A program made the position numbers and the translations under genes. From a virus, in the IMG/VR virus record IMGVR_UViG_3300049324_000058, positions 1-41,709 of that record: a DNA stretch of 41,709 nt. One strand, written 5' to 3'. Each line of letters opens with the position of its first letter. Position 1 is the stretch's first letter. A model generated the notes under the pieces. That model had not been told where the DNA came from. It saw only the letters and a list, made by a program, of their open reading frames with translations, and searched no databases. Positions 2,825 to 36,692 of the stretch are shown here, in pieces.

Positions 2825-3793
2825 GTGGTGGGCGAACAATCGCGCGCTTCCAGCGAGTTCGTCGCCTGTAGCAGCCCCCTGGACGCGCTCGTGGACGACT
2901 ACCTGAACGAGTGCCGGGCCCGCGGCTTGCGCACCAAGACGGTGCAGCGCTCCTACGCCTGGCCCCTCCGACAGCTCTTCCTCCCCTGGTGCGCGAGCGA
3001 GGGCGTTAGCCAGGCGGGCGAACTGACCCGCGGCCTCGTCAACCGCTGGACGGTCAGCCTCCACGAGACCGGCGGGCCGCGGGGTCCGCTCCGGCCGGCC
3101 AGCGTGCTGGTCTACGTCGTGACGGTGAACCGGTGGCTGCGCTGGGTGCATATGCAGGGCGAGACGGACAAGGAGCTGAGGGCCCAGCTCCCGCGCCTGC
3201 CGAAACGGGTGATCGAGATCCTGACCCCGGCCGAGGTCGACCGGATGATCGATACCGCTCGGACCGGGCGCGACAAGCTCCTGGTCAGGTGCCTGTGGCA
3301 GACGGGGTGTCGGGCGAGCGAACTCCTGCACCTGCGCCTCGACGACCTGGTCGAGCAGGGCCGCCACCGCTTCCTCCGACTCCTGGCCCCGGACCTGGGC
3401 GGCGGGGCCAAGGGCGGCCGCGAGCGCCTGGTCCCCATCCCCCGCCTCTACCCGGACCTACGCCGCTACGTTGATCGTGAGCGCCCGGAGTCCTACAGCG
3501 ACCGCCTGTGGCTGAGCCTGCGCAGGACGCCCAGCGGCGAGTACGTCCCGCTCGAGCTCGGCGGCCTGGAGCAGCTCATCCGCCAGCTCGCCCAAGACGC
3601 CGGGATCAGAAAGCGGGTCCACCCGCACCTGTTCCGGCACTCGGCGGTGACCCACTGGCTGCGGAAGGGCATGAACCCGCTGCAGGTGGCGAACATCGTG
3701 GGGCACAGCTCGCTGAAGATGATTCAGGCGGTGTACGCCCACCTGGATTCGGCGGACGCCTACGAGGCCCTCTCCCGGGTGCTGGACACCTGA
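2825..3793 (+). CDS. int: tyrosine recombinase / phage integrase
   Basis: This 322-residue protein is a tyrosine site-specific recombinase that would integrate and excise the element. It has an N-terminal SAM-like core-binding domain (about residues 18-115) and a C-terminal catalytic domain (about 130-315). The catalytic set is visible: R163 in TGCRASELLHL, K197 in GGGAKGGRERL, H268 and R271 in HPHLFRHSAV, H294 in VGHSSLKM, and nucleophile Y304 in AVYAHLD. It resembles XerC/D-size integrases and lacks a long arm-binding N-terminus. GTG 2825 and GTG 2828 are both possible starts; the latter fits the -10 spacing. An inverted-repeat terminator follows at 3868. Confidence 0.95.
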   Translation: MVGEQSRASSEFVACSSPLDALVDDYLNECRARGLRTKTVQRSYAWPLRQLFLPWCASEGVSQAGELTRGLVNRWTVSLHETGGPRGPLRPASVLVYVVTVNRWLRWVHMQGETDKELRAQLPRLPKRVIEILTPAEVDRMIDTARTGRDKLLVRCLWQTGCRASELLHLRLDDLVEQGRHRFLRLLAPDLGGGAKGGRERLVPIPRLYPDLRRYVDRERPESYSDRLWLSLRRTPSGEYVPLELGGLEQLIRQLAQDAGIRKRVHPHLFRHSAVTHWLRKGMNPLQVANIVGHSSLKMIQAVYAHLDSADAYEALSRVLDT

Positions 3794-8410: not shown

Positions 8411-8545
8411 GTGTTCAAACAGGGCAGGGCGAGGCCGTCCTTGCCTCTCGACCCCGCGCCTGACCCTCAACCCTTGGCGTCCTCGCCGATCCCGATTACG
8501 CTGATGCCAACGCGGCTGGAATCGGATTCAAGCGAGGTGCAGGAC

Positions 8546-9256
8546 ATGACACAGGCGTGCTCGGGCGCGGGCGGCTGCCCGCGGGTATTCGTGGACGCCG
8601 GCGGTGACGTGATCGTCCAGGGATACGAACAGGGCGTCGCCGGCATGGCATCGCCGCCGGCGGGGGAGGCCCATGTCCGGATGGACCTGATGACTTGGCG
8701 CGAGCTGGCGCGTCAGGTGGAGGCGGCCCAGGCGGACCCGTTCGTGGCGTTCGCGGACAGCGCGTGGCGGCTGGAGACCAAGCCGCAGTACCTCGTCGAT
8801 GTGGAGGCGGAGCGCTTCCAGGCCTTCCGCGAGGGCCTGGCTCTGCCGCCCTGGCCCGCCGCGAGCGTGGAGTGGTTCGCGGGGATCGCGGCCCAGGTGG
8901 CTGCGGGCCGGCAGTGGGGCCGGGTCCACGTCGTGGATGAGCCACTGAGCGACTACACGCTGTTCGAGCTGGAGTGCTACCGCGACAACATCGCCGCCGG
9001 CGAGGACGTGAGGATCGCGATCCGCGATGCTCGGCCGGAGCTCGCGGGACTGGCCGAGGATTTCTGGCTGTTCGACGTTGGGACGGACCGCCCGCTCGCG
9101 CTCCTGATGAAGTACGACCCGGACGGCCGGTGGCTCGGCTACTGGCGCACGGAGGACCCGGCTGTGATCGGGGAGTGCAAGCGCCAGCGGGGCGTAGCTC
9201 TCGCCGCCGCCGTGCCGCTGGACGCCTACCTCGCCGCGTCGGTGGGCGGCCGGTAG
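8546..9256 (+). CDS. DUF6879-like protein with Cys-containing N-terminal domain
   Basis: The C-terminal part (about residues 70-230) matches DUF6879 as I know it: VDVEAERFQAFREG, WGRVHVVDEPLSDYTLFELE, NIAAGEDVRI and DFWLFD. The first 60 residues (CSGAGGCPRVFVDAGGDVIV) form a small beta domain often encoded beside these regulators. DUF6879 genes usually sit next to XRE-DUF5753 genes in actinobacteria, where they may act as partner or antitoxin-like proteins; the mechanism is unknown. ATG 8546 is used. GTG 8411, in frame and eight bases after an extended -10, would add 45 low-complexity residues as a leaderless start. Confidence 0.85.
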   Translation: MTQACSGAGGCPRVFVDAGGDVIVQGYEQGVAGMASPPAGEAHVRMDLMTWRELARQVEAAQADPFVAFADSAWRLETKPQYLVDVEAERFQAFREGLALPPWPAASVEWFAGIAAQVAAGRQWGRVHVVDEPLSDYTLFELECYRDNIAAGEDVRIAIRDARPELAGLAEDFWLFDVGTDRPLALLMKYDPDGRWLGYWRTEDPAVIGECKRQRGVALAAAVPLDAYLAASVGGR

Positions 9257-9260
9257 ACGT

Positions 9261-10127
9261 ATGGCCGGCGGCCCGAGTGCGTTCCAGGCCGAGCGGCTCA
9301 GCCTCGCCGCCGAGCTGAAGCGGATCCGGGAGGCCGCCGGCCTGACCACGCGGGACATGGCGGGCGCGCTGGGCGCCAGCCAGACGAAGGTGGTGCATCT
9401 CGAGATGGGTCGCCGCGGCGCCCGGCCGGACGATGTCCGCGCATGGGCGCTGGCGGCCGGCCTCGCGCCTGACGATGCCGCCGCCCTCTCGACGCGCGCC
9501 GAGAAGGTGCAGACGGACATCACCGACTGGCGTCAGGCAATGCGGGCGGCGGGGTCGTCCGGGATGGCGACCATCCAGCAGGAGTGGGCGGCTATGGAGC
9601 GGCTGGCCCCGATCCAGCGGGAGTATCAGATCCTCGTCGTGCCGGGCCTTCTGCAGACGGCCGAGTACGCGCGCCGGGTCTTCGCCGTCGAGGAGGAGGG
9701 GGAGGGGCAGAACCTTGCCGCGGCAGCCGCGGAGCGCCTGGAGCGGCAGGCTGCGCTCTACGATCCCTCGAAGCGATTCGAGTTCGTTGTGCACGAGGGA
9801 GCTCTGCGCTGGCGGATCGGACCGCCGGCCGTGCACGCGGCCCAGCTCGACCGCATCCGCCAGGTGGCGACCCTGTCCGGCGTCTCGCTGGGCATCATCC
9901 CGATGGACGTCGAGGCGACGATCTGGCGCTATCACCCGTTCGCCATGCTCGATGGCCCCGACGGCTACGAGGGGCTGGTGGAGGTCTTCGTGGAGCTACT
10001 CGGCAAGAATGTGGGCATCAGCGACCCCGAGAGTGTGGAGCGGTACCGCCGCACGTTCCGACAGCTCCAGGCGATCGCGGCCACCGGCGGCCAAGCCGCA
10101 GCAATCATCGATAGGGTGGGACAGTGA
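9261..10127 (+). CDS. XRE-DUF5753 transcriptional regulator
   Basis: This 288-residue protein has an N-terminal helix-turn-helix (about residues 14-70: ELKRIREAAGLTTRDMAGAL, then SQTKVVHLEMGRRG). A DUF5753 domain follows (about 110-280), marked by QEWAAMERLAPIQREYQ, VPGLLQTAEYARRVF, HEGALRWRIG and LGIIPMD. This architecture is almost restricted to Actinomycetota, where such regulators commonly pair with DUF397 or DUF6879 proteins. The start lies four bases after the DUF6879 stop. It may bind the inverted repeat at 8371-8394. Confidence 0.93.
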   Translation: MAGGPSAFQAERLSLAAELKRIREAAGLTTRDMAGALGASQTKVVHLEMGRRGARPDDVRAWALAAGLAPDDAAALSTRAEKVQTDITDWRQAMRAAGSSGMATIQQEWAAMERLAPIQREYQILVVPGLLQTAEYARRVFAVEEEGEGQNLAAAAAERLERQAALYDPSKRFEFVVHEGALRWRIGPPAVHAAQLDRIRQVATLSGVSLGIIPMDVEATIWRYHPFAMLDGPDGYEGLVEVFVELLGKNVGISDPESVERYRRTFRQLQAIAATGGQAAAIIDRVGQ

Positions 10128-11711: not shown

Positions 11712-11963
11712 CTACGGGGAACCTCCAGTGCTATCGGGGGATCGGGCCAGGGCCGCGTTGGCCCAGAACATCGCCTCCTCGATCTTCGTGATCGCCAGCG
11801 ACTTCTCGCGACCGTCTGGCAACACCTGATCGAGATGCCACGCCAGGCTGTGGCACTGCTCGCGCACCGCTTGGTGCTGGCCGCGCCGCTTCTCTGAGCG
11901 AGGCGGGTGGTAGTCGAAGCGCTCCGCGAGGTCCTGGACCGGCCGGCCGGTGGGCGAGCTCAC
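11712..11963 (-). CDS. Acb2/Tad1 hairpin-domain-like protein, putative anti-CBASS sponge
   Basis: This 83-residue protein has the layout I associate with the Acb2/Tad1 hairpin family: a FDYHPP motif (residues 16-21), a helix with HQAVREQCHSLAWHLDQVLP, then GREKSLAITKIEEAMFWANA and ALAR at the end. Acb2 proteins are small helical phage proteins that sequester cyclic nucleotide signals of CBASS immunity; Tad1 sequesters Thoeris signals. GTG 11963 overlaps the protease stop as GTGA. Late-operon placement would be unusual for early anti-defence expression unless it is also read early. Ligand specificity cannot be deduced. Confidence 0.7.
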   Translation of the reverse strand: MSSPTGRPVQDLAERFDYHPPRSEKRRGQHQAVREQCHSLAWHLDQVLPDGREKSLAITKIEEAMFWANAALARSPDSTGGSP

Positions 11964-12847
11964 AGCCCGTGCCGCTGCAGCCAGGCGTCGACCGCGCCCA
12001 TGAACTGGCGGAGCAGCGCGCCGAGCTCGTGCAGCGGGTCGCCCGGAGCGGGCGGGGGAGGGGCCGGGCCGCCGCCCTCCGTCTCCTGCGTGACGACCCA
12101 GAAGTCGGAGGCGTAGGTGGGCGAATCGAGGTAGCCGTAGGGCGCCGTGAAGTACCCCGCCTGGCCCCAGCCGTCGCCCCAGGAGTTCCGGCAGAGCCAG
12201 GTCCGCGCCGCGTCGTCGTACCCGACCAGGAGTACGGCGTGGCCGCCGACCGGGGACTCGCCGCGGCCGGGCGCCGGCAGGACGCCGGTGCTCGCCACCT
12301 CGGCGGACTCGATGGCCGCGAAGGCGTCGAATCCGATCGCGACCGGGAAGCCGGCGGCCAGGGCCTGCTTCATGGACGTCGCGGTGACCTGGACCCGCAT
12401 GTACTTGGTGGCCTTGTCCCGAGCGGCCTCGTCGACGACGGCCTGGGGCGGCGCCTGCGCGAAGCGCGCGATGTCGTAGGGCCACTCCGCCTCGTCCACG
12501 TAGCCCGGCTGCCCGGCCACCACCTTCAGCCCGTCGCGCAGCTCGGCGCCGGCGTCGTCGCGCGTGGAGTTCTCGATGGCCCGCTCCCAGTAGTAGAGGG
12601 CGAGGCGGGCCGGCGTGATGTGCTGCTCGAGCTTGGTGGCGCGCTGGACGTACATCAGGGCGCTGGCGATCGCGTTGGCGGTGCAGCTTCCGATCTGACC
12701 CTGGTCGAAGATGGGATCGTCGAGGTTTCCGGTCGTCCGAAGATCCACTGCGGCCGGGAGCGTGGCGGCCGTCGGCAGCGCGATGTGCTCGTGCAGCCAG
12801 AAGTCACGGTGGTCAGGGCGGTCGGAACGCCAACCGTAGGCGGGCAT
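11960..12847 (-). CDS. papain-family (C1A-like) cysteine protease
   Basis: The 295-residue protein carries a full papain-type catalytic set: Q51 and C55 in FDQGQIGSCTANAIASAL, H203 in GGHAVLLVGYDD and N221 in CRNSWGDGWG. There is no signal peptide and almost no propeptide, so it may be active as made. The C-terminus is Pro-rich (GGGPAPPPPAPGD) followed by an amphipathic helix. ATG 12847 overlaps the upstream stop as TGATG. Papain-like proteases are uncommon in tailed-phage lysis regions. Possible roles are cleavage of a virion, host or cell-surface protein, or of the wall peptide as in related folds. Confidence 0.92.
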   Translation of the reverse strand: MPAYGWRSDRPDHRDFWLHEHIALPTAATLPAAVDLRTTGNLDDPIFDQGQIGSCTANAIASALMYVQRATKLEQHITPARLALYYWERAIENSTRDDAGAELRDGLKVVAGQPGYVDEAEWPYDIARFAQAPPQAVVDEAARDKATKYMRVQVTATSMKQALAAGFPVAIGFDAFAAIESAEVASTGVLPAPGRGESPVGGHAVLLVGYDDAARTWLCRNSWGDGWGQAGYFTAPYGYLDSPTYASDFWVVTQETEGGGPAPPPPAPGDPLHELGALLRQFMGAVDAWLQRHGL

Positions 12848-27092: not shown

Positions 27093-27109
27093 GTTACTTG
27101 CCTCCAGGT

Positions 27110-27121
27110 TATACTATCGGG
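27110..27121 (+). promoter_or_regulatory. -10 (TATACT) for the HNH gene at 27122
   Basis: TATACT (27110-27115) is followed by six bases and then ATG 27122, the same spacing as for the AP2-HNH gene at 17158. The transcript would begin at the A of the start codon. No Shine-Dalgarno is present. Confidence 0.72.
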
Positions 27122-27781
27122 ATGACATCGGCTTGCTCTGAGACGGGTTGCCTCCGACCTAGTCGAGCCCGAGGGCTATGTGACATGCATTGGCAACGGT
27201 GGCGTAAGCACGGCACGACGGCTGATCGCCCTTCTCTCGCGGACCGATTTTGGCTCCGCGTAGAACATGGGGAGGCAACCGACTGCTGGCGTTGGAAGGG
27301 CGCCCTATTCCCGCAGGGCTACGGCCTGCTCAACGTCGACGGGCGCCCCAAGGGCGCTCATCGCGTCAGTTATGAACTCGTCATTGGACCAATTCCGAAG
27401 GGCGTCCACCTGGACCACCTTTGCCGGAACCGCGCCTGCGTCAACCCAGCTCACCTGGAACCGGTCACGGCCCGCGTCAATATCCTGCGCGGCGAATCGA
27501 CCTCGGCGGCCAACGCCACGAAGACGCATTGCAAGCGCGGCCATCCCTTCGACGAGGAGAACACCTACGTCTACAAGGGAAGACGGGGTTGTCGTGAATG
27601 CAGGCGGGCGCTGTGGCACGCCGCGCATCCCCCCGCCGGGACAGCTAATGCCTCCAAGACGCACTGCGCCGCCGGGCACGAATACACCCCTGAAAACACC
27701 TACTGGAGGAAGTCGGGGCAACGGCGTTGTCGAGCCTGCACCTTGGAGCGCAACCGAGCGTCAGCGGCCCGATCGGGATAG
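27122..27781 (+). CDS. HNH homing endonuclease with three zinc-finger-like modules
   Basis: The 219-residue protein has an N-terminal Cys/His module (ACSETGCLRPSRARGLC, MHWQRWRKHG), a central HNH domain (CWRWKGALFPQGYG, GPIPKGVHLDHLCRNRACVNP, with D98, H99, N109 and H111) and two tandem C-terminal zinc motifs (THCKRGHPFDEENTYV and THCAAGHEYTPENTYW, each followed by CRxC). It is transcribed against the late operon from its own -10. Its 3' end overlaps the convergent 111-residue gene by 21 bp. It is a likely mobile insertion. Confidence 0.94.
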   Translation: MTSACSETGCLRPSRARGLCDMHWQRWRKHGTTADRPSLADRFWLRVEHGEATDCWRWKGALFPQGYGLLNVDGRPKGAHRVSYELVIGPIPKGVHLDHLCRNRACVNPAHLEPVTARVNILRGESTSAANATKTHCKRGHPFDEENTYVYKGRRGCRECRRALWHAAHPPAGTANASKTHCAAGHEYTPENTYWRKSGQRRCRACTLERNRASAARSG

Positions 27782-29192: not shown

Positions 29193-29529
29193 CGATCCGC
29201 TCCACGCAGAGCGCCTGCACCATCCGGTTCTGCTCGTCCACGTTGTAGACGGTTCGGACGTCGAGGACGCGGGCGCCGAGCAGGACCCGGGACTCGTGGG
29301 TCACCGCTGACGGGTGGTGGAAGGTCAGGACGTGCACGATGTCCTGCTCGAGCTGGCCGGCCGTCAGCACCTCGGCCGCGCTGCGCGTCTCTACGGCGGC
29401 CATCTCCCGGCGGGCGGTCGCCCACGCGACCACCGAGTTCCCCTCGGTGTCGGTCGTCACGGTCCTGCTCTGGATGGTGACCGGACTCCGCAGGCGGCCC
29501 GCCCGGATCGCGACCGAGCGCGACTTCAC
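29182..29529 (-). CDS. head-tail adaptor / closure protein
   Basis: GTG 29529 overlaps the connector stop as GTGA. The 115-residue beta-barrel protein (RSPVTIQSRTVTTDTEGNSV, HVLTFHHPSAVTHESRVLLG) matches the Phage_H_T_join type (SPP1 gp16-like), which closes the head below the portal. Neighbouring genes are the connector and gp10-like protein, in canonical order. Confidence 0.87.
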   Translation of the reverse strand: MKSRSVAIRAGRLRSPVTIQSRTVTTDTEGNSVVAWATARREMAAVETRSAAEVLTAGQLEQDIVHVLTFHHPSAVTHESRVLLGARVLDVRTVYNVDEQNRMVQALCVERIVAV

Positions 29530-30185
29530 CGCATCAGAACCTGGCCGTAGCCGCCCATCAGGGCATCGACCCCCATCGGCAGCGAGACGGCCACCACGCG
29601 GGCATCGGCAACCACCTGCTCGCGGTTGGCGTAGAGGTGACCGAGGTAGAGCAGCAGCGCCGCCTTCCAGTCATCGGGGACGAGGCCGGGCGAGGCGAAG
29701 CCCGCGACGAACTCGATCCTGATCGCGGCCGGCGCGAGGGCGACCACCGGCCAGATCTTGTTGAGGGCGGGATAGACGCGGGCCTCCGAGCCCTCCGAGC
29801 CAGGATCGAGCGTGTAGTTCGCGCTGGCCAGCGTCTGAGTCGCGCCCGAAGGGTCGAGGTAGGTGATGGACGTGATCGACTGGACCGGGGGCCGCAGTTC
29901 GATCATGCTCCAGGTCACGCCGAGGCCCATTGCCCAGGTCGAGGGGGACACGCCGTAGAAGGACTCCGAGATCCACTTCGATTGGTCGAAGCGATCCAGC
30001 GTCAGGACCAGCGTCTGCGTCAGGAAGGCCCGGTCGTACTTCCACTCCAGGTTCCGGCGCGCCGCCCGGATCTGGCCCTGGACCATGGCGTCGTGGTCGT
30101 CGAACGTGATGGCGAGGTGGTCCTTGGCCTCCTTCAGCGAGATCGGCTCTACCGTCGGCGGCGTCTTCACGGTGAGGACGCCCAT
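29526..30185 (-). CDS. head-tail connector (phiE125 gp8 / HK97 gp6-like)
   Basis: ATG 30185 overlaps the SDR stop as TGATG and gives 219 residues. The family pattern is evident: PISLKEAKDHLAI near the start, QIRAARRNLEWKYDRAFLTQ, SITSITYLDPSGATQTL, IRIEFVAGFAS and WKAALLLYLGHLYANREQV. This protein docks on the portal and extends the connector. Normally it lies right after the capsid gene; here a sugar cassette of about 4.3 kb stands between. Confidence 0.9.
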   Translation of the reverse strand: MGVLTVKTPPTVEPISLKEAKDHLAITFDDHDAMVQGQIRAARRNLEWKYDRAFLTQTLVLTLDRFDQSKWISESFYGVSPSTWAMGLGVTWSMIELRPPVQSITSITYLDPSGATQTLASANYTLDPGSEGSEARVYPALNKIWPVVALAPAAIRIEFVAGFASPGLVPDDWKAALLLYLGHLYANREQVVADARVVAVSLPMGVDALMGGYGQVLMR

Positions 30186-31084
30186 CAAGCGACCGCCTCC
30201 TGGCCCAGCGCCATCCTGGCGCCCTCCTCCAGGCTCACTCGAGGCTGGTAGTGCTGCAGCATCAGCGTCGGGTCAGCCACCCGGTAGCGAACGCCGACCG
30301 GCTGGTCCGTCCGGTGCTCGATGCGAGGCTGGTACCCCGCCGCCCTGCACACGAGCGGGGCCAACTCGTTGAAGCTGGTCCCGATCCCGGTTCCGAGGTT
30401 CACGGGCCCCTCGATGCCCTCCTCGGCCAGCTTCAGCGTGGCGGCCACGATGTCGCTGACGTGGATGAAGTCGCGCACCTGCTCACCGTCGCCCCAGACG
30501 ACGAAGGGGTCCTCGCGACTTCGCGCCCGGTCGATGAAGGCGCGGAAGGGGTAGGCCGGATCCTGATCGGCGCCGTAGCCGGTGAAGGGGCGGACGACCG
30601 TCACCGCTACCCCTGCGGCCCGGGCGTGGCGCGCCAGCAGCTCGCCGGTGAGCTTCGACCAGCCGTAGAGGAGGTCGGGCGCCTTCGCGAAGTCGAACCA
30701 CGGGTCGACGTCATCCTCGCGAAGGCGGTACTCGGCCGTGGCGCCGTTGGCGTCCTGGTAGGCCACCGGATAGGCCGCCGAGCTGCTGATGTAGACCACC
30801 CGCCCCGGCCGCGTCCGCGCCGCCCACTGGAAGAGCTCAGCGTCGAGGCTCAGGTCGACCGCGAGCTCCAGCGGCGCGCCCTCGATCGTCTGCCGGCCAC
30901 CGACCACGGCGGCGCAGTGGATGGCGAGATCCACGCGGCTCGTGGCGCGCCGGAAGTAGTCGCGCGCGTCCAGCGGCTCGCGGCCGGCAACGTCCACGCA
31001 GCGGACCTCGTGGCCGTGGTCGCGCAGGGCGCGGACGAAGTGGCGGCCGAGGAAGCCGCTGGAGCCGGTGACGAGGGCCTTCAT
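30185..31084 (-). CDS. NAD-dependent epimerase/dehydratase (extended SDR)
   Basis: This 299-residue protein has the Rossmann motif VTGSSGFLGRHF (residues 5-16) and catalytic YxxxK (Y140 and K144 in LLYGWSKLTG). SSSAAYPV around residues 101-107 supplies the catalytic Ser/Thr region, and RDFIHVSDIVAATL is typical of nucleotide-sugar epimerases and dehydratases of the GalE/RmlB family. It would modify a nucleotide sugar, feeding the adjacent glycosyltransferases. ATG 31084 overlaps the methyltransferase stop as ATGA. Confidence 0.92.
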   Translation of the reverse strand: MKALVTGSSGFLGRHFVRALRDHGHEVRCVDVAGREPLDARDYFRRATSRVDLAIHCAAVVGGRQTIEGAPLELAVDLSLDAELFQWAARTRPGRVVYISSSAAYPVAYQDANGATAEYRLREDDVDPWFDFAKAPDLLYGWSKLTGELLARHARAAGVAVTVVRPFTGYGADQDPAYPFRAFIDRARSREDPFVVWGDGEQVRDFIHVSDIVAATLKLAEEGIEGPVNLGTGIGTSFNELAPLVCRAAGYQPRIEHRTDQPVGVRYRVADPTLMLQHYQPRVSLEEGARMALGQEAVA

Positions 31085-31647
31085 CGGCACCCCCAGATCT
31101 GGAACGCGTACACGCAGCCGGCGGGCCGCAGGTCGAGGTGGTTGTGCATGATCGGCGCGAAGCCGGCGGCCGCGAGCATGGCGCTGACCTCCTCGGAGTC
31201 CCAGCACCACAGGTGCTCTGGGTTGCTGTGGTCCGTCTCGCCGTCCGGGGTCGAGAGCAGCAGGCAGCTCGTGCGTGGCCGGATGGCGCGGAGAACCGCG
31301 TCCGGGTCGTCGAGGTGCTCCAGCGTCTCCGAGAGCACCCACAGGTCCGCGTGCTTGACCCGCTCGACGGTCTGTTCGATCGGCCCCACGTGCTCGTGGC
31401 CGGGGGCATAGTCGCCCAGCGTCAGGCGGGCCCGGCCACCGAACGCCGCTGAGATGCCTCGTGGGATCGCCGCATCACCGCAAGAGAGGTCAGCGATTAC
31501 TCCCTCGCCGCCGAGCAGGTGCAGCCCCATCGCCACGCTGACGTCGACGCGGACGCGGTGGTCCCACCAGTGCGTGTGGTCGTGCGGGCGCGGATAGAGC
31601 TGGCCCATCTCCTCTGCGGTCGGGGTCGGCCGCAGCCTCACACGCAT
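31081..31647 (-). CDS. class I SAM methyltransferase-like protein (second copy)
   Basis: The 188-residue protein has an SAM-type motif I, IADLSCGDAAI (residues 51-61), a downstream acidic loop and the segment SETLEHLDDPDAVLRAIRP, as in small-molecule or sugar methyltransferases. It shares the layout of the neighbouring 193-residue methyltransferase, including LEHL-DP and HLWCWD/HLWAFD, so the pair is probably a tandem duplication. ATG 31647 lies inside the end of the upstream gene. The likely acceptor is a sugar. Confidence 0.85.
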   Translation of the reverse strand: MRVRLRPTPTAEEMGQLYPRPHDHTHWWDHRVRVDVSVAMGLHLLGGEGVIADLSCGDAAIPRGISAAFGGRARLTLGDYAPGHEHVGPIEQTVERVKHADLWVLSETLEHLDDPDAVLRAIRPRTSCLLLSTPDGETDHSNPEHLWCWDSEEVSAMLAAAGFAPIMHNHLDLRPAGCVYAFQIWGCR

Positions 31648-32219
31648 ATGGCCATCACCACCTGGAACCAGCTCGCCCGCTCGTGGCGGATCACTCGCCA
31701 GCCCGCCCGTTCGATGAGGTCGCGGTAGCCCTGCAGGTCGAAGGCCCAGAGGTGGTGCTCGTAGTGCGCACGGTCGGTCTCCGTGGCCGGTGACGAGGCC
31801 ACGAGGATCCGGCTGCGCTGCGCGGCCCGCTGGAGGAGCGCCGCGGGATCCTCCAGGTGCTCCAGCACCTCGGTGGCCACCACCAGGTCCGCCCACTCCG
31901 GGTCGGCCGCCACGATGTCCTCGTAGCGCGCGTCGACCCCACGTTCCGTCGCGGCCGCGATGTTCGCCGGCGTCAGGTCGTAGCCCCAGGCGGCGAGGTC
32001 GGCCGGCAGCGTCGAGAGCAACCCGCCGTCGCCGCAGCCAAGGTCGACCACCGAGCGGACGGCGTAGCGGGTGCGGGCCTCCATGACGTAGTCGCGCGCC
32101 AGCATCAGACGCTCGCGGTGGCCCTCCTGATCGAGGTGGGGGACCGACTCACGGTCGCGGTGCCACTCCGGCGTCGTGCACTCGGGCGCGGGGCCGGCCG
32201 GGAAGAGGCGCCACCGCAT
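31638..32219 (-). CDS. class I SAM methyltransferase (first copy)
   Basis: ATG 32219 overlaps the upstream stop as TGATG and gives 193 residues. Motif I is VVDLGCGDGGL (residues 57-67), followed by WGYDLTPANIAAA. EVLEHLEDPAALLQRAA, RILVASSPATETDRAHYEHH and LIERAGWRVI match the Methyltransf_23/11 type. The target is unknown. Its place among glycosyltransferases suggests methylation of a transferred sugar. Confidence 0.92.
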   Translation of the reverse strand: MRWRLFPAGPAPECTTPEWHRDRESVPHLDQEGHRERLMLARDYVMEARTRYAVRSVVDLGCGDGGLLSTLPADLAAWGYDLTPANIAAATERGVDARYEDIVAADPEWADLVVATEVLEHLEDPAALLQRAAQRSRILVASSPATETDRAHYEHHLWAFDLQGYRDLIERAGWRVIRHERASWFQVVMAICV

Positions 32220-32905
32220 CAGGCAGGCGCGGCCTGGGCGATCATCGCGCGCAGCTTGGCGAGGGCCGCGGGGCTCTCCTCGCGCACCCAGCGCAGGAAC
32301 GTGGCGTGGTCGCGCGCGTACATCGCGGTCGAGTTCACCTCGCGGTAGCCGGCGTCCCACTCGGCGGTCTTGGCCAGCGGGTGCACGTGCTCGATCACGA
32401 CGTCGGGGAGGTAGCGGATGCGGCCGAGCTGCTGCCCCAGGCCCAACCAGTAGTTGTCGAGGAAGAGGTGGATCAGGCCGGGCGGATGGAAGTAGCCGAG
32501 CGCCTGGATGATGTCCGACGTCATCGCGACCGCGGTCGGCAGGTTCTCCCGCTGGAGGAGGTCGTTGCCGTACGCCAGGCCGGTGCCCATCTCGCGCAGG
32601 ACGGCGACCATGGTGGCGTCCCAGCCGACCGTACGCGGGCAGTGGTCGTCGCCCATGAAGCCGACCGCGAAGTAGCCCGGCGCCTCCTGGACGGCAAGCC
32701 GGTTCAGGGTCGGCCCCATGCGCTCTCGGGGGCCGATAGTGACGCTGGGGCAGGCGTCGAGATAGCCGAGCAGCTCGGGGTCGTCTTCGTCACAGGCCAC
32801 CAGGAGATGGGAGTCGCCGGCGGCCGTCTCGTCCCAGGCTGCCTGCAGGCGAGCGATGTTGCCCGGCCGCCCGCGCGACGGAACGATCATCAGGAGGTCG
32901 CTCAC
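32219..32905 (-). CDS. GT-A type glycosyltransferase-like protein
   Basis: GTG 32905 overlaps the preceding stop as GTGA. The 228-residue protein starts LLMIVPSRGRPGNIARLQAA, as in GT2-family enzymes, and carries FMGDDHCPRTVGWD (DD at residues 86-87) as the nucleotide-sugar and metal motif. FLDNYWLGLGQQLGRIRYLP and IEHVHPLAKTAEWD are typical later elements; the HVH may bind the metal. It differs from the paralogous pair next to it, so it probably adds another sugar. Confidence 0.88.
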   Translation of the reverse strand: MSDLLMIVPSRGRPGNIARLQAAWDETAAGDSHLLVACDEDDPELLGYLDACPSVTIGPRERMGPTLNRLAVQEAPGYFAVGFMGDDHCPRTVGWDATMVAVLREMGTGLAYGNDLLQRENLPTAVAMTSDIIQALGYFHPPGLIHLFLDNYWLGLGQQLGRIRYLPDVVIEHVHPLAKTAEWDAGYREVNSTAMYARDHATFLRWVREESPAALAKLRAMIAQAAPA

Positions 32906-33747
32906 TGGGCCGCCTCCTGCGGCTCGCCGGCGACGGTCCCCTCGGGCTCAGGCTTCGCGGGCGGCGGGTCCACGGCGCGGTCGCGCCAGTAGTCGTGCTC
33001 GCCGGCCCACATCTCCTTGTGGTGGCTGGTCGGGACCCCAGTGTGGACGTAGATCGGGATGTCGAGCGCGCCAGCACGAATGCAGAAGGAGAGGTCCTCG
33101 CTGACCATCTGGCCGGTGCTGGGGTTCGGGGTGCGGTTGTACCAGACCGGACCGAAACGCTCGGCGATCCGCTCGAGCACGGAGCGGTGGATCAGGATGC
33201 AGGCCGAGCCTGTCCCGTGGCACTTCACGAGGGCGTCTGGCGGGTAGTCCCACATCACCGCGAAGCCCTGCTGGCCGCGGTGCTGCGTCCAGTGGTAGAT
33301 GGTCGGCACCAGGCCCGCGTGGTGGCCGCCCATGCCGTCCAGGCGCAGCTCGCGGACGCTGAAGCAGAGGGCGCCGACGATCGGTCGCTCGACCGGATGA
33401 GCCCCGGCGAAGAGCCGGTCGACGGTGTCGGCGCCGAAGCCCATGTCGGTGTCGACCCACCAGAGCCAGTCGCCGCGGCCATCGGCAAGGAACTCCCGGA
33501 CGGCGCGGTTGCGCGACTCGATCAGGCCGTCGGTGCCGTACTTGATGCTGATGAAGCCGCCCGCCAGCACTCGGCCGTGGTTGGCCATGTCCCAGCCGAT
33601 GAGCTGGGTCATCGAGTGGTGCCAGGAGTAGCTGACCCTGGAGTCGTGCACGTAGGCCGCGACGACCGCCTGCGCCTTCTCGGCGGCATCGAGCACCGGG
33701 GCCGGCGCGGGCGGGTCCCAGGCTGCCGGGATCGGGGTCTCGCTCAT
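32902..33747 (-). CDS. GT-A glycosyltransferase, paralogue 2
   Basis: The 281-residue protein has the DxD motif in WWVDTDMGFGADT (D99, D101), IVGALCFS, HGTGSACILIHRSVLERI, SEDLSFCIRAG and YVHTGVPTSHHKE. The upstream neighbour shares nearly the same motif series, so the two arose by duplication. It has a Pro-rich C-terminal tail (PPPAKPEPEG). ATG 33747 overlaps the previous stop as ATGA. Similar proteins in actinophages are annotated as glycosyltransferases, and some modify virions. Confidence 0.88.
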   Translation of the reverse strand: MSETPIPAAWDPPAPAPVLDAAEKAQAVVAAYVHDSRVSYSWHHSMTQLIGWDMANHGRVLAGGFISIKYGTDGLIESRNRAVREFLADGRGDWLWWVDTDMGFGADTVDRLFAGAHPVERPIVGALCFSVRELRLDGMGGHHAGLVPTIYHWTQHRGQQGFAVMWDYPPDALVKCHGTGSACILIHRSVLERIAERFGPVWYNRTPNPSTGQMVSEDLSFCIRAGALDIPIYVHTGVPTSHHKEMWAGEHDYWRDRAVDPPPAKPEPEGTVAGEPQEAAQ

Positions 33748-34493
33748 GGGACGGGCGCCACCTCGCGGGAGCTGTGGGCGTCGCTCAGCCAGACCTGTTT
33801 CAGGTGGGAGGTGCGGATGCCCGTGTGGACGTGGATGGGGATGCCGGCGATGGCGCAGCGAAGGCAGAACGAGAGGTCCTCACCGATCACGCCGCCGACC
33901 TCGGGATTGGGCACCGGGTCGTACCAGCACGCGCCCTGTGTCTCCGCGATGATCGCCAGGGCGGCCCGGTGGATCAGGATGCAGGCGCTCCCGGTGCCCG
34001 CGCACTGGAGTAGCTCGTCGGCGGGGTACTCGCCGCGGCCGATGAAGCCACGGGCCTCGTCGTGGCTGACCCAGTCGTAGATGGTCGGTATGGACTCGGT
34101 GCGGTAGCCGCCCAGACCGTCCTCCTCGGGCATCTTCTGCGCGAAGCAGAGCGCGCCGACGATGGGTCGGGCGGCCGGGTCCGCCACGGCGAGCAGGCGC
34201 TCCAGCGTGTCGGGTGCGAACCCCATGTCCGTATCCGTCCACCACAGCCAGGCCACGCCAGTGCGGAGGAACTGGGCGACACCCTCGTTGCGCGCCGCCC
34301 ACACGCCCTGGAAGCCGCAGCGGACCTCGATCGCCCCGGCCAGGCGCTGGCCGGCGTCGCGGCGCTGGACGGCCATCATGCTCCGGTGCCAGGACATCGC
34401 CACCTCTGTCGAGTGGACGTAGGCAGCGGCGACCTGGTCAGGCGCGGGCAGCGGCGAGGGCCTCGCGCAGGCGCTGGATGCTCCAGCGCCCAT
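33744..34493 (-). CDS. GT-A glycosyltransferase, paralogue 1
   Basis: This 249-residue protein is the shorter paralogue. The DxD motif is in WWTDTDMGFAPDT (D87, D89), followed by IVGALCFAQ, AGTGSACILIHRAALAII, GEDLSFCLRCA and HVHTGIRTSHLK. ATG 34493 overlaps the upstream gene by 56 bp; the first 20 residues are not conserved with paralogue 2, so a later start is possible. It begins the sugar cassette directly after the small head proteins. Confidence 0.87.
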   Translation of the reverse strand: MGAGASSACARPSPLPAPDQVAAAYVHSTEVAMSWHRSMMAVQRRDAGQRLAGAIEVRCGFQGVWAARNEGVAQFLRTGVAWLWWTDTDMGFAPDTLERLLAVADPAARPIVGALCFAQKMPEEDGLGGYRTESIPTIYDWVSHDEARGFIGRGEYPADELLQCAGTGSACILIHRAALAIIAETQGACWYDPVPNPEVGGVIGEDLSFCLRCAIAGIPIHVHTGIRTSHLKQVWLSDAHSSREVAPVP

Positions 34494-34800
34494 CGACCTT
34501 GATCCCGGCGGCCTCGGCCTCGGCGCGGAGCCGCTCCAGCTCGGCGAAGGAGGCGTCGGCCTGGTTCGGGATCGTGACGTTGCGGCGCTCGCCGGGCGCG
34601 GCCGTGGTCTGCTCGATGCGAGGCTCGGGCGGGGGCGGGGCGCTGTAGCTCATGCCGTACTTCGGGTCCTCGGTGAACAGGTCGGGGTGGTCCACGACGA
34701 GCGGGTCATCGGCGCGCCAGTGCGTGCCCAGGTGGACGCCGAGGGGCCAGCCGCCGGGCATCGTCACGACGGTCGTGGCGGTGGCGTAGACGACCTTCAC
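34438..34800 (-). CDS. head-region protein with HeH/LEM-like C-terminus
   Basis: GTG 34800 overlaps the preceding stop as GTGA. The 120-residue protein has a beta-rich N-terminal half (VVYATATTVVTMPGGWPLGV, DDPLVVDHPDLF), a Pro-rich linker (SAPPPPEPRIE) and a C-terminal helix-extension-helix-like module (LRAEAEAAGIKVDGRWSIQR). Similar modules occur in phage head proteins. It may be a capsid decoration or maturation protein. Position after the capsid gene supports a head role. Confidence 0.7.
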   Translation of the reverse strand: MKVVYATATTVVTMPGGWPLGVHLGTHWRADDPLVVDHPDLFTEDPKYGMSYSAPPPPEPRIEQTTAAPGERRNVTIPNQADASFAELERLRAEAEAAGIKVDGRWSIQRLREALAAARA

Positions 34801-35078
34801 TCGTAGCCCATCTCCGCGAGCTGCTCGTCAATCTCCTTGATGGCGTCCTCGGCGTGCTTGCGGTTCGCGTCCGCGGCCGGGTTGTCGAGGTCCTTCAGGA
34901 TCAGCTCGTGGGACTGCCGCTGGGCGAGCAGGTAGTGGACGCCCGGGTCCCCGGACTCGCTGGCGCGCGCCTTCGGGGTCGACGGCTGGGCGGCCCCCGG
35001 TCGCTCGGACGAAGGGGCGTGCTGGGACGAAGACGAGGTCGTCGAGGCGGCCGGCTTGTCGGTCGACTTGTCGGACAT
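34797..35078 (-). CDS. small Ser-rich head-region protein, 93 aa
   Basis: ATG 35078 has AGGAGGG with a six-base gap. The first 45 residues are Ser/Thr/Pro/Ala-rich and probably disordered (KPAASTTSSSSQHAPSSE). The C-terminus is a charged helix (ELILKDLDNPAADANRKHAE, DAIKEIDEQLAEMGYE). It follows the capsid gene. A decoration or minor head protein is likely, and the Ser/Thr-rich region would be a possible O-glycosylation substrate, which is conjecture. Confidence 0.7.
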   Translation of the reverse strand: MSDKSTDKPAASTTSSSSQHAPSSERPGAAQPSTPKARASESGDPGVHYLLAQRQSHELILKDLDNPAADANRKHAEDAIKEIDEQLAEMGYE

Positions 35079-35141: not shown

Positions 35142-36692
35142 TCACGCGTTCACGAGGAGACGGAAGCCGAGGTCGTTGACGCTCCCGCCGCCGACCCTCG
35201 CGTAGGCGAACCAGCCGCGCTGGCCGGTGGGCCGGTTGTTGGTCACGTCGAAGAGCGTCGGCACGAGCTCGACCGACATCCCCCCTCGACGAGCGATCAG
35301 GTAGTTCTGGAAGTCGCCGACGACCGCCAGGCCGGTGGTCGCGCTCGTGCCGGTGGTGGTGTCCGGCATGTACGGCGACTCGTGGACGCCGCTCCGGAAC
35401 AGCGAATCGACCCAGCCCTCGGGCAGGTTGATCGTGTACGCGTGGTACACGTTCGCGGTCCCGAGCTGGCGGATCGCGTTGTTGGTGTTCACGCTCATGA
35501 GCCAGCTGGCCCGCCGGCGGAACTTCTGCGGCAGCGCGGCCCAGACCTTGTACGGGTCCGGCGCGCCGAGCGTGCCGCCGGTCGTCAGCGTCACCCGGAC
35601 GTTGGTGTTCGCCGAGAGCGCGGTCAGGATGCCCTGCGGCTCGCCCGAACCGGTGCCGCGGGTCAGCTTGTCGACCAGCAGCTCGTCGTACCCGGCAGCG
35701 AGCAGGGTCGCCATCTCGGCCGCGAAGCTGGGGTAGTCCTGGCTCACCTCGATCGAGTAGGGGATGAAGCCGCGGGCCATGTAGACCTGCACGCTCGGCT
35801 GGGCCAGGGTCGGGCTGTCGTCGCTCACCGCCGACGCCTCTGCGTCGAACGACCAGCTCACGCCGGCGGACGAGACGCCCTTCCAGGCGTTGGTGTTGAT
35901 GTCGACCTGGCGGGCCAGCTGGAGGAACGGGTTCCCCGACTCCTGGGCGGTCAGGATGATGCTCGGATCGATGAAGACCGGGATGCCGAAGCCGCCGGCC
36001 GTGGTCGTGCCCTCAGACATGGCCCGGTACTCGTTGTAGCGCAGCAGCGCGCCACGCTCGTCGTCAGTGAGGATCGGCTGCGTCTGGGTGACCATCTTCA
36101 GCCACGCCTCGCGGTAGTCGGGGTTCTCGGTGACGACCACCCGGCGGGCGATGTCCGTGCTCTTGCGGACCTGGCGCTCCAGCTCCTCGCGCTGGGGCGC
36201 GGTGAGGTGGGAGGCCGCGGAGCGGTCGTCGAGGACGCGCAGCGCCCGGTCCCGAGCCTCGGCGGTCGAGATCCGCACCACGCCACCCGAGGGGTCCTCC
36301 AGCCCGTGCCGGATGGTCTCGTAGGCGTGGCGGACGGCCTGGGGGCGCTGCGAGAGCACCTCCTGGATCTGGCGGTGCTCCTCCAGCATGGCCATCGCCT
36401 TCTGCCGGATCTCCAGACAGATGGCCATGGCCCGCTGCTCGGCCGCGTCGAGGTCGCGGAGCTCGCCGGCCTCGGTCTGGTGCAGCGCGCGGATGTGCGC
36501 GTCGAGCACCACGACTGTCTGGTGGAGCTGCTCAGGCGTCTGGCCGCGCAGGTCCTCCAGGGTCTGGGGGATGGCGGTGCCGGCCTCGTTGCGGACGCCG
36601 AGGGTGAACGGGTAGCGAGCCGCCGAGCGGTCCAGGATGGCGGCAGCGGCGGCCTGGAACGACCGCCAGGGGATCATCGCGTTGTCAGGCAC
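35142..36692 (-). CDS. major capsid protein, HK97 fold, with N-terminal scaffold domain
   Basis: GTG 36692 is chosen because GGAG lies seven bases upstream; the frame continues upstream without a good signal. The 516-residue protein has an N-terminal helical scaffold (delta-like) region to about 230 (QLHQTVVVLDAHIRALHQTE, AMAMLEEHRQIQEVLSQRPQ), followed by the HK97 capsid domain: GGFGIPVFIDPSIILTAQES, VSWSFDAEASAVSDDSPTL, YMARGFIPYSIEVSQDYPSF, RGTGSGEPQGILTAL and WLMSVNTNNAIRQLG. The scaffold is probably removed by the protease encoded just upstream. Confidence 0.94.
   Translation of the reverse strand: MPDNAMIPWRSFQAAAAAILDRSAARYPFTLGVRNEAGTAIPQTLEDLRGQTPEQLHQTVVVLDAHIRALHQTEAGELRDLDAAEQRAMAICLEIRQKAMAMLEEHRQIQEVLSQRPQAVRHAYETIRHGLEDPSGGVVRISTAEARDRALRVLDDRSAASHLTAPQREELERQVRKSTDIARRVVVTENPDYREAWLKMVTQTQPILTDDERGALLRYNEYRAMSEGTTTAGGFGIPVFIDPSIILTAQESGNPFLQLARQVDINTNAWKGVSSAGVSWSFDAEASAVSDDSPTLAQPSVQVYMARGFIPYSIEVSQDYPSFAAEMATLLAAGYDELLVDKLTRGTGSGEPQGILTALSANTNVRVTLTTGGTLGAPDPYKVWAALPQKFRRRASWLMSVNTNNAIRQLGTANVYHAYTINLPEGWVDSLFRSGVHESPYMPDTTTGTSATTGLAVVGDFQNYLIARRGGMSVELVPTLFDVTNNRPTGQRGWFAYARVGGGSVNDLGFRLLVNA

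Follow-up and report, generated by a model that had tools for sequence, protein, structure and literature searches.

What do three glycosyltransferases (GTs), two S-adenosylmethionine (SAM) methyltransferases (MTs), and one short-chain dehydrogenase/reductase (SDR) do inside the head operon of a soil phage? We addressed this question for a six-gene cassette, here named A to F, of the IMG/VR virus record IMGVR_UViG_3300049324_000058. The record (41.7 kb, 70.4% GC) is hereafter called the window. The best-supported reading is that the cassette likely serves virion glycosylation with methylated sugars, based on its location, on the linkage of its GT to the capsid gene, and on homologues of cassette genes of Che8 and Corndog-type phages in the same slot of a relative. 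Virion glycosylation of any kind is very likely, and the most likely acceptor is the major capsid protein.

The cassette and its predicted proteins

The late genes all lie on the minus strand, in the order terminase, portal, protease, HK97 capsid, ser93, x120, A-B-C-D-E-F, adaptor, head closure, neck protein, and tail genes (Table 1). An earlier note on this DNA had placed three GTs, two SAM MTs, and one SDR in the head module, between the capsid-region genes and the connector. Family searches and the six open, intact reading frames bear out both statements; the HK97 capsid gene and its two small neighbors lie on one side, and the head-tail adaptor on the other. The note had also joined all genes by stop/start overlaps. 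The junctions do overlap (A/B 4, B/C 4, C/D 1, D/E 10, E/F 4, and F/adaptor 4 nt), although not all of them are plain stop/start junctions, and x120 and A share 56 nt, provided that A begins at the ATG at 34493. The third-position GC content of the cassette (0.89-0.94) is similar to that of the flanking head genes, and a scan restricted to consensus sequences found no promoter-like or terminator-like site within the cassette interval. The same genes, A to F followed by the adaptor, occur in the same order in relatives L005, L009, and L107; therefore, the cassette is not a chance assembly.

All three announced GTs are present, with the correction that A and B are paralogues (46% identical). Compared with the single core GTs of 16 relatives, B was the nearer of the two in 15 cases. 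Residues D87, D89, E205, and D206 are invariant in A/B, and the DXD-like metal site of GT-A enzymes is found as D87/D89 (DTD) in A/B and as DDH in C. In Foldseek, the AlphaFold model of A (predicted local distance difference test, pLDDT, 90) matched GT-A enzymes, and the protein glycosyltransferases COLGALT1/LH3 and ppGalNAc-T were high among its PDB matches; the TM-scores were only about 0.5, and these predicted-structure matches speak for a fold, not for a specificity. By homology to A, B would adopt the GT-A fold as well. The model of C (pLDDT 95) matched the bacterial GT-A polysaccharide enzymes RmlT, WrtF, and TarP. PDB sequence searches with C and with an A/B profile gave no meaningful match.

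In relatives, the first and second GTs are often fused, and the fused domain belongs to the C family: C and the C-terminal domain of the GT-GT proteins align in hhalign at 98.5% (E 3e-15). The fused proteins were not listed by plain BLAST at 1e-5, which had raised the suspicion that their matches to the iterated C profile came from profile drift; this explanation was rejected, as the profile-profile comparison favors common descent. Of the two MTs, E clusters with D and resembles the D-type proteins of relatives.

The SDR, F, has an intact YxxxK motif and reads ISSSAAYP where GDP-mannose 3,5-epimerase (GME) and GDP-fucose synthase (GMER) have the SSCIYP/SSACIYP motif. Because the catalytic Cys is thus replaced by Ala, a nucleotide-sugar 3,5-epimerase of the GME/GMER type was rejected for F, which leaves a 4-epimerase or 4-ketoreductase of nucleoside-diphosphate sugars as its probable activity.

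A capsid-linked glycosyltransferase and an apparently exchangeable module

A profile search of viral contigs with the GT only returned at least 569 confirmed relatives, 80 of which were kept, and gene context was read in about 100 of the GT-bearing relatives. Genes were called by codon usage, given the overlapping frames at 70% GC. An HK97 capsid gene lies upstream in 71 of the 77 non-duplicate loci found by the GT alone, with no more than four genes between in 70 of them. From the opposite direction, a capsid search yielded 25 relatives, and those with enough downstream DNA have an A/B-type GT soon after the small head genes. Five cultured actinobacterial genomes each have a single copy of the A/B-type GT, next to an HK97 capsid gene: Amycolatopsis pretoriensis DSM 44654, Streptomyces speibonae, S. 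chumphonensis, Nonomuraea wenchangensis, and Acrocarpospora phusangensis. The prophage of A. pretoriensis has GT-GT, a 2OG oxygenase, and an MT, whereas those of S. speibonae and S. chumphonensis have the GT only. Among 396 sampled genomes of the Amycolatopsis phylum, the GT was found only in the center genome itself; it is therefore rare in sequenced hosts. The INPHARED isolates, searched with A or a divergent family member, gave nothing or distant matches only.

The site between the capsid-region genes and the adaptor can also be empty. Gordonia phage ThankyouJordi and Mycobacterium phage Babsiella, which have related capsids, carry the capsid gene, an x120 homologue, and the adaptor with no insert. 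In the GT-bearing group, nothing separates the GT from the adaptor in 10 loci, and at the other extreme about ten genes do, although the longest counts may take in later genes, as the adaptor profile can match more than one gp6-like protein. Across 100 loci, the inserts include MTs in 58, SDRs in 26, C-type GTs in 25, and 2-oxoglutarate (2OG) oxygenases in four. A Pfam scan covering 120 proteins of the GT-to-adaptor stretch identified Methyltransf_23 in 25, epimerases in 12, the rhamnosyl O-methyltransferase family RMNT_CmcI in four, sugar C-methyltransferases (Methyltransf_13/14) in three, TylF in two, and 2OG oxygenases in two, whereas PHROGs assigned 22 of the 120 to head-tail adaptors, the far boundary of the locus. 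Two fusions, GT-GT-MT in one 659-aa chain (L006) and C-D in one chain (L017), tie the MTs to glycosyl transfer.

Prolyl-hydroxylase-like 2OG-Fe(II) oxygenase genes directly follow the capsid-adjacent GT in four relatives (L118:11358-11990, L044:7468-8088, L031, and L098). Together with the collagen-type GT-A matches of A, they suggest glycosylation of hydroxylated residues in some relatives.

Co-variation separates the locus into two units. Pairwise identity of the A/B-type GT correlates with that of the capsid (r 0.81, n=63 loci) and still does so with the portal partialled out (0.71), whereas GT and portal correlate at -0.14 after accounting for the capsid. C and F correlate with each other (r 0.82-0.86), against 0.09-0.40 for either with the capsid, and the difference between the capsid-GT and capsid-C correlations has a bootstrap 2.5% bound of 0.16. 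Among loci not selected through C, F always occurs with C (8/8, Fisher 1e-6), and D and E occur only with F. Since the GT tracks the capsid and C and F track each other, the locus looks like a capsid-matched GT joined to an exchangeable sugar cassette.

Acceptor, precedents, and alternatives

A few mycobacteriophages are known to glycosylate their heads, which affects antibody recognition. The strongest functional evidence for the window comes by synteny through relative L020, whose capsid is 59% identical to that of the window. In L020, two A/B-type GTs are followed in the slot by an MT and a further GT (L020:6630-7876 is the Che8-type part). This MT is 61% identical to Che8 gp108 over the MT region of gp108, and its identity to Firecracker gp33 is 55%. 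The further GT is 49% identical to Che8 gp109 and shares 53% identity with Firecracker gp35. Such accessory MT and GT homologues (49-61%) are present in L020 and absent from the window. Corndog is closely related to Firecracker.

Che8 gp110 and Corndog gp38 are reported to be necessary for capsid glycosylation (PMC12363180). Infected cells produce Corndog gp35-38, none of which was found in virions, and the mass spectra contained few capsid peptides (PMC4351075). Like Corndog gp35-38 and Che8 gp108-110, the window cassette combines phage-encoded GTs with MT genes. It lies within the virion structural operon, and in the cluster O phages such genes also lie inside the head-gene operon. The positions differ, however: the Firecracker cassette lies between portal and protease and that of Che8 near the genome end, whereas the window cassette lies between x120 and the adaptor. 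Additionally, the window has an SDR, and its relatives vary in the downstream module.

In chlorovirus PBCV-1, mostly soluble viral GTs and O-methyltransferases (A064R, A061L, and A118R) likewise decorate the major capsid protein, and its GT-GT-MT protein is comparable in layout to that of L006 (PMC9614988). PBCV-1 is, however, a eukaryotic virus with N-glycans whose genes are not tied likewise to the capsid gene, and we claim no homology. EGole gp36 and Atuin gp170, from large Streptomyces and Arthrobacter phages, share 40-45% identity with C along about 95% of its length and also adjoin another GT gene, but neither stands beside head genes, and a nucleotidyltransferase gene follows.

We propose that, while the late genes are expressed, B and its duplicate A would attach the first sugar or sugars to a head protein in the cytoplasm; the most likely acceptor is the major capsid protein. 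C would add the next sugar, F would make the donor from a nucleotide-sugar of the host, most likely by 4-epimerization or 4-ketoreduction, and D and E would O-methylate the glycan. Exchange of C-D-E-F would give related phages different capsid glycans, somewhat like bacterial O-antigens. The scheme in this form is probable in our estimate.

Several observations weigh against it. Neither BLAST nor hhalign matched A, B, or C to Che8 gp110 or Firecracker gp36; hence, we do not class the window with the Che8/Corndog homologues but regard it as a system that would work in the same manner. Conservation of capsid Ser/Thr gave no clear separation of GT-positive from GT-negative phages that would point to an acceptor residue, with only two negatives in the comparison. 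The A/B-family GT of L002 has no capsid gene nearby, and that of L119 (Rugosimonospora, L119:7393-13326) adjoins an ABC-transporter gene and an SDR instead of a capsid gene, possibly in a host polysaccharide locus. In L122 (Streptomyces iconiensis, L122:5478-16007), SDR, MT, and terminase genes precede the A/B-type GT, which is followed by a portal and a protease from a different head lineage. Part of the capsid-GT correlation may reflect physical linkage, so the co-variation supports a capsid acceptor without proving one; the adaptor control is also weakened by possible paralogue mixing.

The glycan could be placed on a different virion protein, encoded close by or later (x120, ser93, or the tail tube), instead of on the capsid. 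x120 is detected between the capsid and the GT in most loci, and the mycobacteriophage tail tube is likewise reported to be glycosylated (PMC12363180). We consider this alternative unlikely, as the GT co-varies more with the capsid (0.70) than with x120 (0.49; n=37), and x120 does not lie between capsid and GT in L111-L113. For ser93, 45 of the 99 GT-bearing loci yielded no homologue, and in these x120 is usually the sole gene between capsid and GT. The Ser-rich protein named by the earlier note is therefore an unlikely general target, and the interpretation in the note is partly supported.

The enzymes might instead remodel envelope glycans of the host, for example to block superinfection, like serotype-conversion genes. 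The phage appears to be temperate, and the GT of L119 with its ABC-transporter neighbor would suit such a role. Nevertheless, hydropathy revealed no transmembrane-like stretches or signal-like N-termini in the six proteins, none of which is a membrane-embedded flippase or GT as in serotype-conversion systems. The cassette also lies within the overlapping late head operon, not in a lysogenic position, and its GT co-varies with the capsid, all of which makes envelope remodeling quite improbable.

Modification of phage DNA has a precedent in the T-even phages, whose GTs act on hydroxymethylcytosine. It is very improbable here: among the window proteins scanned, in a record that may be incomplete, there was no hydroxymethylase, thymidylate-synthase-like, or base-hypermodification gene, and the rhamnosyl and macrocin O-methyltransferase families represented in the locus of relatives point to sugar chemistry. 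Finally, passenger cargo at a permissive insertion site, without concerted function, would agree with the HNH endonuclease or DNA-methylase genes among the first genes after the GT in some relatives, but the conserved order, nested co-occurrence, C-D and GT-GT-MT fusions, intact frames, and head-like third-position GC make it scarcely credible.

Virion glycosylation, the preferred explanation, is as a principle already known from mycobacteriophages and chloroviruses. The site, the GT family, the SDR, and the modular diversity are new. So is the combination of a fixed, capsid-matched GT with exchangeable sugar-tailoring genes, along with how widely it occurs and the fact that cultured strains carry it next to capsid genes. 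The earlier note missed that the A/B-type GT is a near-constant capsid neighbor in this phage group and that the remainder is an exchangeable module. Its description "unusually complete" is only partly apt: sets of comparable or different make-up are common among relatives, and F by itself is a donor-modifying SDR that does not amount to a whole donor pathway.

More broadly, the locus may be a dedicated capsid-glycotype locus of a sizeable group of soil actinophages, most of them uncultivated, in which a capsid-matched initiating GT, fixed beside the capsid gene, is combined with an exchangeable cassette of GT, SDR, and O- and C-methyltransferases, some with prolyl-hydroxylase-like oxygenases; we advance this generalization tentatively. 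If true, each phage would carry a different methylated, possibly branched-deoxysugar coat, an O-antigen-like diversity on the phage head. A modular head-operon locus is present in many environmental phage contigs, with sugar-tailoring families that are elsewhere characteristic of the biosynthesis of antibiotics and O-antigens. The five sequenced strains make the acceptor, sugar, and purpose of this soil-phage coat glycan testable, if their prophages are inducible.

Host and other features of the window

Table 1. Features of the window discussed in the text.
Feature	Position	Strand	Assignment and support
Integrase	2825-3793	+	
Head-tail adaptor	29526-30188	-	Far boundary of variable locus; TIGR02215 E 2.6e-25; PHROG 442
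F	30185-31084	-	Extended SDR; Epimerase (NAD epimerase) E 9e-36; PHROG 540
E	31081-31647	-	Second class-I SAM MT, related to D; weak Methyltransf_23 E 1e-3
D	31638-32219	-	Class-I SAM MT; Methyltransf_23 E 3e-13
C	32219-32905	-	Second GT-A glycosyltransferase, GTG start; PHROG 14945 glycosyltransferase E 2e-48
B	32902-33747	-	GT-A glycosyltransferase, counterpart of capsid-linked core GT; PHROG 34859 E 4e-13
A	33744-34493	-	GT-A glycosyltransferase, divergent paralogue of B; PHROG 34859 E 1.5e-15
x120	34438-34800	-	Small head protein; homologous to ThankyouJordi gp7 (hmmsearch E 1.7e-14) and Babsiella gp8 (1.7e-11)
ser93	34797-35078	-	Ser-rich 93-aa protein
Major capsid protein	35142-36692	-	HK97 fold, candidate acceptor; Phage_capsid E 2.8e-29; PHROG 10 major head protein

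We take the phage to be temperate, as the integrase gene indicates, and its host to be an actinobacterium. A DUF6879 gene adjoins an HTH-DUF5753 regulator gene (8537-10127, plus strand), a pair that we take to be typical of actinobacterial chromosomes, and the host was assigned on this basis. The window also encodes a papain-family (Peptidase_C1) cysteine protease (11960-12847, minus strand), here in a temperate phage. An HNH endonuclease frame (27098-27781, plus strand) adjoins the major tail protein gene on the opposite strand.

Among the relatives, the capsid gene is broken or incomplete in L024 (4684-7079), L017, L037, L084, and L085. L024 and L017 each match the capsid in two pieces, which in L024 are separated by a 217-aa reading frame; an intron or insertion, or an assembly frameshift, is a possible cause.

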